From Nostoc linckia FACHB-104 (GTDB taxonomy: Bacteria > Cyanobacteriota > Cyanobacteriia > Cyanobacteriales > Nostocaceae): a DNA stretch of 50,527 nucleotides. Position 1 is the first letter of the stretch; every line of letters begins with the position of its first letter. Location of the stretch: positions 1 to 50,527 of the forward strand of contig NZ_JACJQJ010000061.1 in assembly GCF_014696615.1 (NCBI RefSeq). Direction: 5' to 3'. Below the pieces are notes generated by a model. That model was not told the origin of the DNA, did not search any database, and saw only the letters and a program-made list of their open reading frames with translations. Shown here in pieces: positions 10,030-18,161 of this stretch. The position numbers were made by a program, and so were the translations under genes.

Positions 10030-10424
10030 ATGAGTCCAGAAGAAAAAGATCGGAAAATCGAGAGGCTAGAGCAGGAAAATGAGGCCTTACGGGAAAAAAT
10101 AGCAGAGCTAGAGAGGCGTTTGGGGTTAGATAGCCACAATAGTTCAAAGCCACCTTTAAGTGACGGACTCAAAAAGAAGGCGACAATAATTCGCACGAAA
10201 AGTTTAAGAGAGAAAGGAAAACGCCCATCAGGGGGACAAAGGAATGGTCGCAAGGTGGCGGACTGGGTTTCTGATTTAATTGGTCGCCCAGTGAGTCGCC
10301 AACGAGGTTGGGAATATCTCAAGCAAATGCGCGGTTAAGAGTTCCGCGACCAGAACATACAGAATCAAGTATCCTATCGCTAAGGGTAGCAGAGGGAGCA
10401 GAAGGAGAGAAAAAATTTGCTTAA
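10030..10424 (+). pseudogene. IS630-like transposase, frameshifted N-terminal remnant
   Basis: The first 102 codons (10030-10338) read RKIERLEQENEALREKIAELE, then SHNSSKPPLSDGLKKK, the coiled-coil/DUF6444-type start shared by IS66 and some IS630 transposases. A winged-helix stretch follows (ADWVSDLIGRPVSRQRGWEYL). The frame stops at TAA near 10336, but the +1 frame continues as LRVPRPEHTESSILSLRVAE to TAA 10422-10424, the natural continuation in this transposase type. So there is a one-base shift around 10333-10340. The catalytic DDE domain is entirely missing. No terminal inverted repeats were found. A dead fragment beside a tRNA gene. Confidence 0.65.
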
Positions 10425-10678
10425 TATCTTCGTCCTTGCTGATTGAATAATTTATTTTCTGGAACTCCCTTAAATTTGTGTTTGGGATTTTTAATTAGTC
10501 AAGACTCGGAGAACACCGCTAATATTAATATCAAAGTTTTCCGTAAACCTGCTAACTCCTAGTGTTGATATATAGAGGGTGAATATATCTATTTCGCTTC
10601 CGTTCTATAAACTCAAGGGTATTTATAATTTTGAATACCCATACAGACTAGTGGTGTGACAATCTGGAGTAAAACCTT

Positions 10679-11623
10679 ATGGAAGCCTTGCTACATAACC
10701 CAATTGCAGATATGTACGGGCCTAACTTCTTACTGTTGTATGCTAGTGTCATTATCGTGACATTGTTATGTTGCTGGAAACTTGTACAAGATCCTACAAA
10801 AAATCAACCCTTACCTTTGATTCCTAGAGAACCAGATCCCTACACAATTGCTTACCTGCGTTTGGGAAAATCAGAAGTGGTAAAGGTAGCAATCTTAAAT
10901 TTAATTCAGAAAAATTTTTTACAAATCACAGAAGAAGGAATTAGCCAAACATCCAATCATGGCGATTTATCAGAACTACAGACGATAGAGAATCAAGTAT
11001 TTTCTAGTTATTCTCCTTCTCCAAGCGTAAAATCCATAGAGTTAATCGCCGACAAAATCCACCTATACTGGGATAATTATGAAGAGCAATTACACAATGA
11101 GCAACTACTATATGCTCAGGAATGGCAAGCAAAGAATATACAAGTTGGCTTAATTGCAGCTACAATTATCTCCAGTTTAGGGCTATATAAGCTACTCATT
11201 GCTTTAGCAAAGGGACGTTATAATGTGGGTTTTCTCATGATTATGGGTGCCCTATCAATTATATGGATTTTTTGGTTTGTCAGTCAGCGATCGCGTCTTA
11301 GCCATCGAGGACAAGCTTACCTCAAACAACTGCAAGAAACATTTGCCCAATTAAAAAACAAAGTAAAGTTTAGTACCCCTTCAGCATTTGACTATAACTT
11401 GTTAGTGGCGCTCTTTGGCGTAGAATTACTTGCTGGTACTGGCTACGACTCATACTACAAAGTTTTTTATCCTCCTACATCTAGAACCAGTAGCCAGCAA
11501 AGCAGATCCTCTGATAGTTCTTGCAGTAGTGGTAGTTCCTGCGGTGGTGGTAGTTCCTGCGGTGGTGGTAGTTCTTGCGGTAGTAGTTGCGGTGGTGGCT
11601 GTGGTGGCTGCAGCGGTGGTTAA
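10679..11623 (+). CDS. TIGR04222-like membrane protein with Cys/Gly-rich tail
   Basis: A 314-aa protein with an N-terminal membrane span (about 17-36), the conserved segment PDPYTIAYLRLGKSEVVKVA (53-71), and a winged-helix-like region (about 65-90). Two more spans follow (about 156-177 and 184-201) and then a globular part. The tail (about 270-314) is Ser/Gly/Cys: cysteines at 282, 288, 294, 300, 304, 308 and 311, separated by SS, GGG or GG. From memory this matches TIGR04222, proteins with low-complexity Gly/Cys C-termini that occur next to DUF692 enzymes. The DUF692 gene follows after 143 bases and its partner overlaps that gene. I infer that the tail is the modified substrate. Its own activity is unknown. 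Confidence 0.8.
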   Translation: MEALLHNPIADMYGPNFLLLYASVIIVTLLCCWKLVQDPTKNQPLPLIPREPDPYTIAYLRLGKSEVVKVAILNLIQKNFLQITEEGISQTSNHGDLSELQTIENQVFSSYSPSPSVKSIELIADKIHLYWDNYEEQLHNEQLLYAQEWQAKNIQVGLIAATIISSLGLYKLLIALAKGRYNVGFLMIMGALSIIWIFWFVSQRSRLSHRGQAYLKQLQETFAQLKNKVKFSTPSAFDYNLLVALFGVELLAGTGYDSYYKVFYPPTSRTSSQQSRSSDSSCSSGSSCGGGSSCGGGSSCGSSCGGGCGGCSGG

Positions 11624-11766
11624 ATACTGAGTTGTCTCATTTATCGCAAAGTACGCGAAGTCAAAAAGGCTTCAAACCATTATTAATGACTAATGACAAA
11701 GCACAAATAACAGCCCTTGCCAGTTATTTTGAATTGTAACGCTCTACTTACTTCATACTTCCAATC

Positions 11767-12600
11767 ATGCTGACTCATTTGCCTAGTTTAGGTGTGGGTT
11801 TAGGTTTTCGAGAACCATTTAAAAGCGACTTGTTTCTTAACCGTCAGCCAGTAGATTTTCTTGAAATTGTTGCTGAACATTATTTAGATGCACCAGCCGC
11901 TAAACAGCAGGAATTAGAATTGCTAGCGGCGCATTTCCCTCTAATTCCCCATGCAATTAATCTGTCTTTAGGTAGTGCTGAAGGTTTGGATAGAGATTAT
12001 TTAGCAAAACTAGCAGCATTAATTAAGCAGCTTAACCCCCCTTGGTGGAGTGAACATCTTTGTTTTACCAAAGCAGGGGGAATTGATATCGGACATTTGT
12101 CACCGCTACCCTATACCCAGGAAGCTGTAGAAGTAGTTTGTCGCAACATAGCTGAAGTACGCCGCTGGATTGATGTGCCATTAATACTAGAAAATATTAC
12201 TTATATGGTGGCGCTTCCTGGTGCGGAGATGACAGAAGCCCAATTTTTAGCGGAAGTAGCAGAACGTGCTGATTGCGGCTTGCTTTTAGATGTTACGAAT
12301 CTCTATACTAATGCTGTCAACCACGGCTATGATGTGCATCAGTTTCTCCAAGAATTACCGCTAGAACGTGTTGTACAGTTGCATTTCGTCGGCGGACATT
12401 GGCATGATGGCGTTTTGATTGATAGCCATTCCCACTCAACGCCAGTAGAAATTTGGCAACTTATGGATGATGTTGTCGCCCGGTTTCCAGTCAAAGGAAT
12501 GGTTCTCGAACGAGATGAAAACTTACCAGCCTTTGCAGAATTAGTAGCAGAACTGCAACAAGCACGACATATTGCCAGGAGTCATGGTAAATGGGTTTAG
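11767..12600 (+). CDS. DUF692 / MNIO-family multinuclear iron oxidase
   Basis: A 277-aa TIM-barrel protein of the DUF692 family (UPF0276), relatives of MbnB and TglH. These use a two- or three-iron centre and O2 to modify cysteine or neighbouring residues of peptides. The polar motifs expected to bind iron are present: EH 37-38, H62 in PHAINLSLG, EH 96-97 in WWSEHLCF, EN 142-143, DVTNLY 175-180, H206 with GGHWHDG (H211, H213), H221/H223, and ERDEN 248-252. Start MLTHLPSLGVGLGFRE matches the family's beginning. The stop overlaps the next gene by 10 bases (ATGGGTTTAG). Upstream lies the cysteine-tail protein, the likely substrate. Family is secure; chemistry and substrate are inferred. Confidence 0.9.
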   Translation: MLTHLPSLGVGLGFREPFKSDLFLNRQPVDFLEIVAEHYLDAPAAKQQELELLAAHFPLIPHAINLSLGSAEGLDRDYLAKLAALIKQLNPPWWSEHLCFTKAGGIDIGHLSPLPYTQEAVEVVCRNIAEVRRWIDVPLILENITYMVALPGAEMTEAQFLAEVAERADCGLLLDVTNLYTNAVNHGYDVHQFLQELPLERVVQLHFVGGHWHDGVLIDSHSHSTPVEIWQLMDDVVARFPVKGMVLERDENLPAFAELVAELQQARHIARSHGKWV

Positions 12601-13172
12601 CACAAACGCAGCAGATTTTAGCCCAACTCTATACTAATACTGAATTAAGGAACAGTTTCTTTGCTAACCCACAAGTCGTTGGTGCAGAATTGGGATTAAG
12701 CGATGCCGAAATAGAGAATTTATCTCAACTTTCTGCGCCGCAAGTCAATCTTTTTGCCAGTTCTCTTAAGTGGAAGCGATTAAATTTATTGTCAAAATTA
12801 CTACCTCTTACAGCAAGCGCCCTCGGTAAAAACTTTAAAACTTTATTTTGGCGGTATGCAGAAACTTATATACCCCAGGGTATCAAGAAACATCGACAAG
12901 ATGCGATCGCCTTTGCTGACTTTATCGTTAAAACCTCACAGCAAGAGGGGTTAGAACCAATTTGGCTGAGTGATTTAGTACGCTACGAACAAGCCTGGCT
13001 ATTAGCCGAGGAACTGAATCGCGGCTTTAAGGTGTGTTGGTTTCGTTATCCCGTTGACAAACTGGGAACTGGTGAACAGAAGATTGATCCGCAACTCACA
13101 ATCGCTGTATGGTGGCGTTTCAGGATGCGATCGCCTCTGCATCATACTGTGCGTAGGCGTAGCCCGTCGTAG
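12591..13172 (+). CDS. MNIO partner protein (DUF2063-like, hypothetical)
   Basis: A 193-aa, mostly helical, soluble protein whose ATG lies inside the last codons of the DUF692 gene (10-base overlap), so translation is coupled. MNIO enzymes usually need such a partner, which binds the peptide substrate. The N-terminal pattern (LYTNTELRNSFFANPQVVG, LGLSDAEIENLSQLS) resembles the helical start of DUF2063-type partners, but the match is by eye. Around residues 145-178 it becomes beta-like (GFKVCWFRYPVD, LTIAVWWRF). The last ~15 residues (MRSPLHHTVRRRSPS) are encoded by a HIP1 site plus the dispersed repeat gcgtaggcgtagcccgtcgtag, so the natural C-terminus has probably been replaced. Confidence 0.68.
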   Translation: MGLAQTQQILAQLYTNTELRNSFFANPQVVGAELGLSDAEIENLSQLSAPQVNLFASSLKWKRLNLLSKLLPLTASALGKNFKTLFWRYAETYIPQGIKKHRQDAIAFADFIVKTSQQEGLEPIWLSDLVRYEQAWLLAEELNRGFKVCWFRYPVDKLGTGEQKIDPQLTIAVWWRFRMRSPLHHTVRRRSPS

Positions 13173-13769: not shown

Positions 13770-16700
13770 ATGGCGAAAAAAACAGTTTTTTTAACAGGTA
13801 ATGCTGATGTTTGGGGCGGCTGGGAAAACGGTATTGAATATGAAGTTTCCGCCTTCGAGGGTAACGATAAACTGTACGGCTATATTGGCAATGACACTCT
13901 AGATGGTGGCGACGGTGACGACCAAATCTATAGCGGCGGCGGAGATGATATTTTAATCGGTGGATTAGGAAACGATTTATTAGACGCTGGCGACGGAAAT
14001 GACATTTTAGATGGCGGTATAGGTAGTGATACCCTCATGGCTGGTAACGGTGATGATATCGTTTTTGGCGGTGATGGTAATGATTTGCTCAATGGTGGTT
14101 TTGGCAATGATATTCTCAATGGCGACAACGATAATGATGTCATTAATGGTGGTGCAGGATATGACATGATTTCTGGCGGTATGGGAAATGACATCATCGA
14201 TGGTGGTGATGGTAACGATGTTATTTATGCTGGTGAAGGCGATGATGGCTGGATATTCGGTGGTTTAGGTGCAGATAACATCGATGGTGGTATAGGGATT
14301 GATACCTTAGATGGTGGTGAAGGTGATGATACCCTGGCTGGCGGTGATGGTAACGATCTGCTCATGGGTAATAATGGCAATGATTATATCTCTGGTGGGG
14401 AAGGCGACGATAGAATTACAGGCGGTGCTGACAATGACATTATCTGGGGCGATGGTGGCAATGATTACATCAGCGGTGGTCTAGGGTTTGACACAATTTA
14501 TGGCGGTATTGGCAATGACAATATCGATGGTGGTGATGGCAATGATGTCATTAACGGTGGCGACAGTGATGATAGTTGGTTATTTGGCGGTTTAGGCGCA
14601 GACAGAATAGATGGTGAACTAGGTAATGACACCCTAGATGGCGGCGAAGGAGATGATACCCTTACAGGTGGTGATGGTATTGATTTGCTCATGGGTAATA
14701 ATGGCAATGATTCCATCGCTGGTGGTATTGGCAATGACAACATCGAAGGTGGGATAGGTAATGATGCCCTATCTGGTGGGGAAGGTGACGATAGAATTAA
14801 TGGCGGCGCAGACAATGACACCATCTGGGGTGATCTTGGCAATGATTACTTAAGTGGTGGTCTAGGATTTGACACCATTTTTGGTGGTATGGGGAATGAC
14901 ATCATCGATGGTGGTGATGGTAATGATGTCATTGCTGGTGGTGATGGCGATGATAGCTGGCTATTCGGTGGTTTAGGGAATGACAGCATTGATGGCGGTT
15001 TAGGTGCAGACACCCTCGATGGTGGTGATGGTGATGATACCCTCGCTGGCGGTGATGGAATTGATATCCTCACAGGTAATAATGGCAATGATGCTATTTC
15101 TGGTGGAGAAAGCGACGATAAAATTTATGGCGGCGCAGACAATGACACCATTTGGGGTGATGGCGGCAATGATTACATCAGTGGTGGTATAGGTAATGAC
15201 ACTATCAACGGTGGTATAGGTAATGACACTATTGATGGTAGTGATGGCAATGATGTAATTGCTGGTGGCGATGGTGATGATAGCTGGTTATTCGGTGGTT
15301 TGGGTGCAGATAACCTGGATGGTGGTTTAGGTGCAGACACCCTCGATGGCGGTGAAGGCGATGATACCCTCACAGGTGGTGATGGTAACGATTTGCTCAT
15401 GGGTAATAATGGCAACGATCTGCTTTCGGGTGGTGCTGGCAATGATCTCATCTATGGTGGTGGAGGGAATGACACCATCTGGACAGATTCTGGAAATGAT
15501 GTGATCAGTGCTGGTATAGGTAATGACACCATTGGTGGTGGCTTGGGAAGTGACAACATTGATGGTGGCGATGGTAATGATGTCATCTATGGCGGTGAGA
15601 ACGATGATGTTTGGTTATTTGGCGGTTTGGGTGCAGACAAAATAGATGGCGGTATCGGTAATGACACCTTAGATGGTGGTGAAGGTGATGATACCCTCCT
15701 AGGCGGTGACGATAGTGATGTGCTTAGAGGCGGGAACGGCAATGATGCGCTGTATGGTGATGCTGGTAATGACAACATTGATGGTGGTTTTGGACTAGAC
15801 ACCATTGGTGGTGGTGACGGTGACGACAAAATTAATGGCGGCGCTGATGACGATACTATCTGGGGCAATGCTGGCAATGATGCAATTACTGGCGGTTCTG
15901 GAGTAGACAACATTGCTGGTGGCTCTGGAAATGACATTATTGGTGGCGGCGACGGCGACGACAAAATTAATGGCGGCGGTGATGACGATACCATCTGGGG
16001 AGAAGCAGGGAATGATTACCTTGTTGGCTGTATGGGTAATGACACCATTGGCGGTGGTATCGGTAATGACATCATAGATGGTAGCGACGGTAATGATGTC
16101 ATTAGCGGTGGCGACGGTGATGATAGTTGGTTATTTGGTGGTTTAGGTGCCGATAAGATAGATGGTGACTTGGGGAATGATACCCTCGATGGCGGTGAAG
16201 GTAATGATACCCTCACAGGAGGAGAAGGTAATGATGTTCTCATCGGCGGAAATGGCAATGATGCCCTATTTGGTGGTGCTGGAACTAACGTCTTATATGG
16301 TCTTGAAGGTGATGATACCCTCGTAGGCGGTGACAGCACAGATATCCTCAAAGGTGGTAATGGTAATGACAGCATGGATGGTAGTGCTGGTAATGACATT
16401 ATTATTGGCGCTGCAGGAAACGATTACCTTAGGGGTGGGAATGGTAGCGACACCCTTGATGGTGCTGAAGCAGCTATCTTTAGCATTAACTCAATAGATA
16501 CCTTTGTTGGTGGGTTAAATGCTGATATCTTTGTCCTAGGCGATAACCTTAAGAGCTACTACGATGATGAAGACGCTACCACTAACGGCGTAAAAGATTA
16601 CGCTATTATTGAAGATTTCAATCGTTTTGAAGACGTGATTCGCCTTCATGGTTCGCTTGGTGAATATGTTGTTGGTGGGATTTCCGATCAATTCACAACT

Positions 16701-18161
16701 GTATTTAATACTAGTAATGCATCGGGTATTTATGTAGATACCGATAAAAGCGGAAGCTGGAATAATACAGATGAATTAGTCGCAGTTGTGAAGAATTTAA
16801 CTCCTGGTAAATTAGTGCTGAGTGGAGATTATTTTCAATACACCGACACACCAAATACAACTGCTTGGCATCCCAGTAAAGATGCTGGATGGGAACTAGT
16901 ATTTAGCGATGAATTTAATGGGACAAGCCTATCTTTAGATAAGTGGAATACACGCTATACTCTGCAAAATTTGTATGGAGGTAGAACCAACCCCTGGAAT
17001 CAAGAATTGCAATACTATGTTGGCGACAATGAAGTCATCAATGGCACAGTTTATGATGGTTTTGAATTTAAGAATGGCATTGTCAATATTGTAGGAAAAA
17101 AAGTTGATAAGCCAATCACTGCATCAATAGGTGAATTTGCCCTTGGTTTTGATGAGGTGAAAACATTTAATTACACCTCTGGAATGCTAAATACTGAAAA
17201 TAAGGCAGCATTCGCCTATGGCTATATGGAAATTAGCGCTAAAGTAGCTAATGGACAAGGGCTTTGGCCAGCCTTCTGGATGTTACCTTCTTCAGGAAAA
17301 TGGCCCCCAGAAATCGACATTATGGAGACAGTAGGTCAAAAAACCGACGCTGTAATTAACTCATTCCACTACTTAGACTCTGAAGGATTAAAGCAAGATA
17401 CGTCATATCAAACATTCACGGGAATTGATTTCTCTAAAGATTTTCACACTTATGGAGTCAAATGGGAAACAGATAAATTAACTTGGTACATCGATCAACA
17501 CGCTGTATTTGAAACTAAAAATAGTATTCCTGATGTACCGATGTATCTGTTAGCCAATCTTGCTATTGGTGGTAAATTCCCAGGCTCTCCAGATGCAACT
17601 ACTCCCGCAATCAACAATTATGAGATTGATTACATTCGTGTTTACCAAGATGCATCTGGTAGTCTGTACGGTGGCTCTAACGATGATGTATTGGAAAAAC
17701 AATTGGGCAGCATTTTTGGGTTAGCAGGAAATGACATTATCAAAGGTGGAATTGGGAATAACACTCTAGATGGTGGCGATGGCAATGATACTTTGATTGG
17801 CGTAAATAGTACAGTTGCTCAACCTGGTGCTGGTGAAGTAGATACCTTAATAGGTGGTGCAGGTCAAGATAAATTCGTCTTAGGTGACAGTACCAAGTTC
17901 TATTATGACAATCGCAATAATTTGGTAACTGGTTTAGGCGGCTATGCTGTTATCAAGGATTTCAATGCAGCCCAAGATACCATGCAGTTGAATGGTAAAG
18001 CCAGTGATTATGTACTTGGCGCAGTATCTTCTCTGAGTGGTACGGGAATTTATCGGGATATTAACGGCGATCGCACTCTCGGTTCCACAGATGAGTTAAT
18101 CGCAGTAGTTCAAGGGGATACAGGATTGAACTTGACGCAGAATTCCTTCCTGTACGTTTAG
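13770..18161 (+). CDS. RTX calcium-binding repeat protein with GH16 glucanase domain
   Basis: A 1463-aa protein. Residues about 15-900 are nonapeptide RTX repeats (GGxGxDxLx type), which bind calcium and form beta-rolls. A terminal RTX module with [15 protein letters not shown] follows (about 911-1030). Residues about 1041-1295 are a GH16 beta-glucanase domain ([11 protein letters not shown] start; [22 protein letters not shown]) with the catalytic EIDIME at E1181, D1183 and E1186. A few more repeats and a second terminal module ([15 protein letters not shown]) end the protein. No N-terminal signal peptide is present; export by type I secretion is expected, but no transporter lies nearby. Likely substrate is a beta-1,3 or mixed-linkage glucan. 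The repeats show a 109-codon super-period. Confidence 0.92.

Follow-up and report, generated by a model that had tools for sequence, protein, structure and literature searches.

The cysteine-bearing C-terminal tails of TIGR04222 membrane proteins have already been proposed as substrates of DUF692 (MNIO) enzymes by Antoine et al. 2025 (PMC12452194), who report, in the accessible parts of that paper, that a third of the genomes with TIGR04222 proteins are without an MNIO; elsewhere, an NHLP domain of the Os1348 type is described, again in the accessible text, as the leader of precursors that are modified by an MNIO-nitroreductase fusion (PMC12636437). The subject of the present work is a three-gene cassette in Nostoc linckia FACHB-104, which lies on a stretch of 50,527 nucleotides (contig NZ_JACJQJ010000061.1 of assembly GCF_014696615.1) referred to below, at its full length, as the window, and which encodes a TIGR04222 membrane protein with a Cys-rich tail, an MNIO and a partner protein. 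The idea that the tail is the substrate was reached independently by Antoine et al., and the central inference is therefore not new; what look like new details are the cyanobacterial three-gene set and the unusual partner, which is fronted by an NHLP-like domain. The main text of PMC12452194, as far as it is accessible, contains no word beginning "cyanobacter"; among the literature matches listed, the term TIGR04222 occurs only in that paper, and among those listed from the open-licence literature there is no report of a cyanobacterial cassette or of NHLP-like MNIO partners.

We consider it probable that in this Nostoc-like cassette a cytosolic complex of the MNIO and its partner oxidizes the tail cysteines of the TIGR04222 protein, and that the product stays on the membrane. 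This account starts from what is observed of the gene anatomy, the families, the partner fold, the conserved order, and the shared presence and decay of the genes. The features concerned are the following.

10679..11623, forward strand: gene for the TIGR04222 membrane protein, 314 residues (TIGR04222 87.1 bits, cut-off 43)
11621..11766, no strand assigned: stretch between the tail gene and the MNIO gene, with a dispersed repeat (15 matches in its own genome)
11767..12600, forward strand: gene for the MNIO (DUF692, PF05114) enzyme, 277 residues (PF05114 312.4 bits, cut-off 25)
12591..13172, forward strand: gene for the MNIO partner, 193 residues (TglI/NGO1945 fold; Foldseek 8hi7_A, E 8e-5)

The conservation of this set was followed in a family draw of 145 genomes, beside which a phylum draw of 292 genomes was used for the tails. 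TIGR04222 proteins score over the cut-off in 44 of the 145 family genomes and MNIOs in 34, of which 27 have a cassette-type MNIO, defined as a full-length enzyme scoring at least 295 bits; the remaining seven have weaker or broken matches, and a further high-scoring MNIO with no TIGR04222 gene alongside (G033:C1:6278259) is excluded from the 27. Every one of the 27 full-length cassette-type MNIOs has a TIGR04222 gene upstream and a partner gene downstream on the same strand, which answers the proposal of the initial annotation that genomes be searched for conserved adjacency of TIGR04222-type tails with DUF692. The number of tail proteins per cassette varies from one (17 cassettes) through two (eight) to three (two), and one of the second copies, in G056, is without a tail. 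A collection of 25 named loci, which overlaps with the first set, retains the complete gene order in 23; the cassette-bearing loci belong to Nostoc, Calothrix, Tolypothrix, Fortiea, Hassallia and others, with Nostoc carneum NIES-2107 supplying the closest partner (88%), and the cassette of Mojavia pulchra (L123) has decayed.

A gene for a six-helix K+ channel (Ion_trans 96.8 bits) lies upstream in 22 of the 27 cassettes, and one of the five without it has a contig beginning at that point. Because this channel is widespread (130 of the 145 genomes, at E 1e-60 or better) while 27 genomes have the full set of cassette genes, the three genes appear to come and go together. Remnants lie beside the channel in several genomes, as a tail protein cut short with an MNIO fragment and a whole partner (G052), MNIO pieces with a stop (G014 and G063), partner pieces (G070, G122 and G002) and a TIGR04222 piece in a genome that is 54% complete (G135), a pattern which we read as repeated loss of the cassette.

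The MNIO matches PF05114 over the whole domain (residues 9-270) and belongs to that family. At columns conserved with 3BWW, TglH (8HCI/8HI7) and MbnB (7DZ9), where not every residue is identical across all three, it carries E33, H62, N65 and H97 as well as E142, N143, D175, N178, H206, D219, H221 and E248, so that the DUF692 enzyme with iron-ligand motifs described in the initial annotation is borne out by the family match and by the conserved acidic, His and Asn positions. Which of these aligned residues bind iron is presumed here. The nearest curated models are BufB (256.5 bits, equivalog cut-off 310) and HvfB (222.8 bits, cut-off 360), and the enzyme falls below both. Mean column identity is 84% across 22 MNIOs and 66% across 22 partners, and neither the MNIO nor the partner has a hydrophobic stretch in its first 45 residues (lowest GES mean -0.12 and -0.15).

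The partner consists of an N-terminus resembling the NHLP clan (residues 6-59), further helices, and a C-terminal helix (126-140) with three strands that resembles an RRE; it had been called helical from the outset, which holds for the first 140 residues. Its AlphaFold model has a pLDDT of 84 and a pTM of 0.72, with the five models ranging from 56 to 84, and Foldseek returns TglI as the top match for it (8hi7_A, E 8e-5, probability 1.00, TM 0.65 by query), followed by NGO1945 (3dee, E 0.05, probability 1.00) and MbnC (E 0.85 and 1.2). By this predicted fold, which is NGO1945/TglI-like and comes with no DUF2063 sequence match, the partner is of the published PME-type 2 kind of MNIO partner. DUF2063 is absent from the families matched by the 22 partner members at E up to 1, which are scattered weak Pfam matches; the window partner has no Pfam family over the cut-off, and the partner profile finds nothing below E 0.16 among PDB sequences.

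The front domain was compared with curated NHLP models. NF038399, an NHLP-clan domain, matches the first 60 residues in all 22 full-length members (best E 1.7e-8) and, at E up to 0.01, all 20 N-terminal pieces (best 1.2e-9; L061 and L063, from among the 22 partners, do not enter that alignment); the piece from the window scores 25.7 bits (E 9.2e-6), and TIGR04509 matches 16 of the 20. No partner reaches the curated NF038399 cut-off of 40 bits, and the front domain is thus, as judged by E-value, probable kin of the NHLP clan and not a formal member of it; the matches do not constitute separate pieces of evidence, because the partner members are themselves kin. A genome search with NF038399 gives matches in 42 of the 145 genomes, where 26 of the 49 rows are the partner and the lone row above the cut-off belongs to a different gene, in G003, while five partner-size proteins at other MNIO loci (L076, L098, L099, L103 and L105) have no NF038399 match at E up to 0.1. 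A match of the N-terminal piece to the nitrile hydratase alpha-chain (E 0.061) was set aside; it ranks under a repeat match at 0.02, which itself looks spurious.

The tail protein is a member of TIGR04222 by the score given above, and it also matches DUF2207_C at 25.1 bits, under the cut-off of 33. Its AlphaFold model (pLDDT 79, with the tail below 50) has three transmembrane helices at 14-35 (TM1), 147-178 (TM2) and 183-202 (TM3), a domain at 36-146, short soluble helices at 236-246 and 248-251 after TM3, and a disordered Ser/Gly/Cys tail from about residue 269; a fold search with this model gives no match at E < 0.001 among 68. The tail cysteines stand at 282, 288, 294, 300, 304, 308 and 311, and further cysteines at 31 and 32. 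Seven tail cysteines between 282 and 311 had been noted as evenly spaced, and their number and range stand, while the spacing of 6, 6, 6, 4, 4 and 3 is regular and not strictly even. These seven fall in the last 45 residues, where every other mechanically called open reading frame (ORF) of at least 200 residues in the window has at most two, against a background of 83 cysteines in 11,765 residues of such frames.

The role of the tail as substrate, the membrane side, the chemistry and the metal are what we infer from these observations. The partner, with its TglI-like fold, NHLP-like front and RRE-like end, would form a cytosolic complex with the MNIO, and this complex would recruit the TIGR04222 membrane protein. 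Cysteines in the disordered Ser/Gly tail would then be oxidized, probably at Ser-Cys or Gly-Cys steps, and converted to sulfur heterocycles or related groups, as with bufferin-type MNIOs. The modified tail would not be released; it would remain membrane-bound, with the cytoplasmic face as the likelier side, and the anchored tail might there be a ligand for a soft metal or respond to redox state or to metals.

Several observations weigh against this interpretation, and they concern the locus, the side of the membrane and the history of the tails. At the locus, adjacency alone is weak evidence, because synteny in the family is old, as the position of the channel upstream of most cassettes indicates; in Nostoc sp. 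CMAA1605 (L128) the tail protein and the enzyme are split, with the one TIGR04222 gene of the genome lying elsewhere and an ORF that by eye looks like a transposase standing upstream of the MNIO; and no metal gene is found among the annotated conserved neighbours of the cassette, a subset of all its neighbours. As regards a RiPP in the sense of a mature product excised from a precursor, no protease or transporter gene is labelled in the cassette, a result that covers those conserved neighbours which were annotated and leaves room for unlinked proteases. Of the system envisaged in the initial annotation there remains, on the one hand, a specific conserved unit of MNIO, partner and tail protein, apparently lost together and with an MNIO-partner fold; on the other hand, the idea is not new, Cys tails also occur without an MNIO, and those annotated neighbours include no metal gene.

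The side of the membrane was assessed by charge counts, given as mean K+R per stretch of alignment columns in 33 cassette proteins (the counts and the tree described below took in 43 TIGR04222 proteins). The N side of TM1 has 0.09 (14 columns) against 1.06 on the C side (15 columns), and the TM2-TM3 loop has 1.30 (7 columns) against 3.58 after TM3 (15 columns). In 25 of the 33 proteins the C side is the more positive one at TM1 as well as at TM3, which, as a judgement from charge patterns, on balance favours a tail on the cytoplasmic face, contrary to the published periplasmic prediction; a cytosolic enzyme could therefore reach the finished protein. Eight of the 33 fail this two-helix test (in seven the two sides of one helix are equal, and the eighth is negative at TM1), the TM3 comparison leans towards the cytoplasmic answer because 7 columns are compared with 15, and six of the ten proteins in the MNIO-free group pass as well. 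Where a copy has an extra N-terminal helix, 1-4 K+R precede it.

The alternative that survives best is that the system is the same and the tail lies in the periplasm, as Antoine et al. propose, with modification before or during export; we regard this as possible, if on the unlikely side. It agrees with the topology prediction in the accessible text of that paper, with a per-residue K+R content in the TM2-TM3 loop that is not much below that after TM3, and with a further stretch near the domain end which passes the hydrophobicity threshold in 6 of 38 cassette copies (GES -1.29 to -2.03) and could be an extra membrane helix, although in the window model this region appears as the two short helices after TM3. 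The charge difference across TM1 argues against it, as does the fact that a C-terminal tail, being last off the ribosome, would need to be modified before crossing.

The tails themselves were compared between 51 non-redundant cassette-linked sequences (two overlapping collections with equal ends removed, and so not a count of genomes) and 15 from genomes without a detected MNIO. The linked set leaves out copies of 300 residues or fewer, and thus also the cut-short copies of L074, L055 and L118; the unlinked set leaves out G106 (L044, a contig-end fragment), G086 (L083, 38% contamination, three tail Cys) and L092 of G190. Linked tails have a mean of 7.7 Cys against 5.2 in unlinked tails, Ser precedes 54% of the linked tail cysteines against 5% of the unlinked, and at least one Ser-Cys is found in 48 of 51 linked tails against 2 of 15 (3 of 16 with L092, which has one Ser-Cys, added by eye). 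In L089 the rule misplaced the tail start (331 residues), so that no meaning attaches to its length or to the mean for that set; it has two Ser-Cys in the last 45 residues and a very long branch in the tree. That tree, of 43 TIGR04222 domains with tails removed, places the MNIO-free Cys-tailed proteins outside the cassette clade and needs a single change to separate linked from unlinked proteins (support 77/82, and 81% of bootstrap trees), and because there is only one change the match between Ser-Cys and MNIO is one historical event and not repeated evidence.

Cys-tailed TIGR04222 proteins without a detected MNIO occur in ten family genomes and in six of the 292 phylum-draw genomes (G371, G155, G152, G356, G276 and G190), so such a tail is not dependent on an MNIO. 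The ten family proteins comprise eight of 487-505 residues with four to seven tail Cys and two of about 450 residues with two. The initial annotation had held that its proposal would fall if homologous tails were regularly found in genomes with no DUF692 gene; such tails exist in these genomes and count in part against the proposal, but they belong to another clade and mostly lack Ser-Cys. The possibility that a Cys tail is a fixed part of every TIGR04222 protein was ruled out by five MNIO-free copies (L034, L041, L042, L043 and L052) which have 0-2 Cys in the last 75 residues and no Ser/Gly tail.

Given such tails, the MNIO and partner might instead modify something else, either a different part or residue of the TIGR04222 protein or a small precursor encoded away from the locus, with the membrane protein as carrier, docking site or processing partner. 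We think this unlikely, even though the tail proteins, one to three per MNIO, have differing tails and known MNIOs, according to the accessible text of PMC12452194, also modify Asp, Asn or Phe. In 21 of the 27 cassettes some ORF of 20-150 residues with at least four Cys is found within 1.5 kb, overlapping the cassette genes by at most 20 bases, but those that recur are a deaminase gene or frames across it, and by eye no small Cys ORF recurs as a same-strand cassette gene, unlinked precursors not having been sought.

That the tail works unmodified, through disulfide, metal or protein contacts, as it presumably does in the MNIO-free relatives, beside an MNIO and partner that are neighbours by descent with a role of their own, would suit the ten family and six phylum-draw genomes with MNIO-free Cys tails and the SPFH-like (six) and NfeD-like (five) genes near the long family proteins among them, but is quite improbable given that 27 genomes have the tail protein of this clade along with MNIO and partner, that these three are lost jointly where the channel is retained, and that the MNIO-free copies lie outside the cassette clade.

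Six loci of the MNIO-free kind (L032, L033 and L035-L038, from G091, G008, G060, G123, G109 and G057) have TIGR04222 proteins of about 490-505 residues with Gly-Cys repeat tails and no MNIO in the genome. Downstream of these genes stand SPFH/band-7-like genes (six loci) and NfeD-like genes (five loci), assignments for which one member of each cluster (c8 and c13) was annotated, the NfeD match lying just under the cut-off. These loci are a second Cys-tail system without a known modifier.

Returning to the oxidation of an anchored tail by the MNIO and its partner, one extension of it, which we offer as a doubtful speculation, is that the partner carries a built-in leader: the NHLP-like front domain would do the job of a leader within the enzyme complex, so that a leaderless tail of an integral membrane protein could be modified on the cytoplasmic face and kept anchored and non-excised, one complex serving up to three tail proteins. 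Such a leader-like front domain suggests that NHLP leaders, one of which is known to lead an MNIO substrate, may be related in evolution to the domains with which MNIO partners dock.

The layout of the locus in the window differs in part from that of its relatives. The 143 bases recorded between the tail gene and the MNIO gene are correct, and they are filled by the dispersed repeat (its 15 matches in the genome of the window include itself), which widens the gap here; in relatives, 7 of the 27 cassettes leave 3-6 bases between the two genes, the mechanical ORFs overlap in 11, and the longest gaps are those of G141 (1004 bases) and G108 (886), the remaining cassettes having at most 175. The partner gene starts 10 bases before the MNIO stop ends, in agreement with the overlap first described, and an overlap of exactly 10 bases is found in 20 of the 27 cassettes with mechanically assigned starts. 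In the alignment the window partner departs from its close relatives in the last residues, next to a short motif (13153-13166) that sits at the gene's end and occurs once in the window. We take this motif to be a cyanobacterial repeat. Upstream of the tail gene lies one further feature.

10030..10338, forward strand: DUF6444 fragment (PF20042 47.5 bits)

This fragment is presumably a transposase N-terminus, and on its side of the cassette the channel that normally adjoins is absent. The K+ channel of this genome lies on contig C104 with no cassette beside it while the cassette is whole elsewhere, and because of this and of the fragment the break would have fallen outside the three cassette genes.

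The channel (L067:3228-4019 and its equivalents) has the filter sequence TVGFGD, and inspection by eye shows two CxxC motifs at the C-terminus that resemble a zinc ribbon. The sequence TTTCCGTAAA (window 10538-10547), with up to one mismatch allowed, precedes the tail gene in 17 of 29 loci, where plain mononucleotide shuffles give 0.5 on average; it is a possible control element, and since the loci are kin it counts as no more than a lead. Downstream of the cassette, a protein of 1463 residues (window 13770-18161) has many RTX-type repeats and by eye a GH16 glycoside hydrolase-like region, and its relatives sit downstream of the cassette in L067 and L073. Another MNIO gene occurs in three genomes of one genus (L076, L077 and L078), without TIGR04222 and beside a 273-residue partner that is weakly ApyI-like, and an MNIO domain is also present in proteins of 470-484 residues with a start that by eye is methyltransferase-like, followed by an unassigned gene of partner size, in distant members of the phylum (L103, L104 and L105).

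If the proposed account is true, MNIO chemistry serves the lasting modification of membrane proteins and not just of excised peptides, at a site which could be the cytoplasmic membrane face, and the small cassette of three genes in named Nostoc and Calothrix strains makes the modification of a TIGR04222 tail without a leader directly testable. Among known systems, the cassette resembles the TIGR04222-MNIO clusters in the accessible text of PMC12452194 in its membrane protein with a Ser/Gly/Cys C-terminal tail, its adjoining MNIO, its PME-type 2 partner and a precursor without a signal peptide. Those clusters are mostly from Actinomycetota, more than a quarter of them have no C-proximal Cys, PME-type 2 partners are predicted in at least 10% of them, and the prediction there is periplasmic, whereas here a partner is present in every one of the 27 intact cassettes and starts with an NHLP-like domain, and the charges lean to a cytoplasmic tail. 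With TglHI of the 3-thiaglutamate system (PDB 8HI7; PMC10880893, accessible text) the cassette shares an MNIO and a partner with a helical N domain and an RRE C domain; TglA serves as a peptide scaffold to which a Cys is added, while the presumed substrate here is a membrane protein, and the N domain of TglI is described as having no structural homologue while that of the partner here matches NHLP models. The bufferins (BufA/BufB/BufC) are similar in having a Cys-rich substrate, possible metal chelation and, among curated models, the MNIO nearest to ours; their precursors have Sec signal peptides and their partners are of the DUF2063 kind (type 1), as far as the accessible sources describe them, while the Nostoc cassette has neither, and with its three-helix membrane protein, no DUF2063 and a BufB score of 256.5 bits (below 310) it is not a bufferin system. 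The Pfl/Pos ribosomally synthesized and post-translationally modified peptides (PMC12636437, accessible text) also place an NHLP/Os1348-type domain alongside an MNIO, there in an MNIO-nitroreductase fusion, but in those systems the NHLP domain is the leader of the precursor peptide, and here it is the front of the partner protein.

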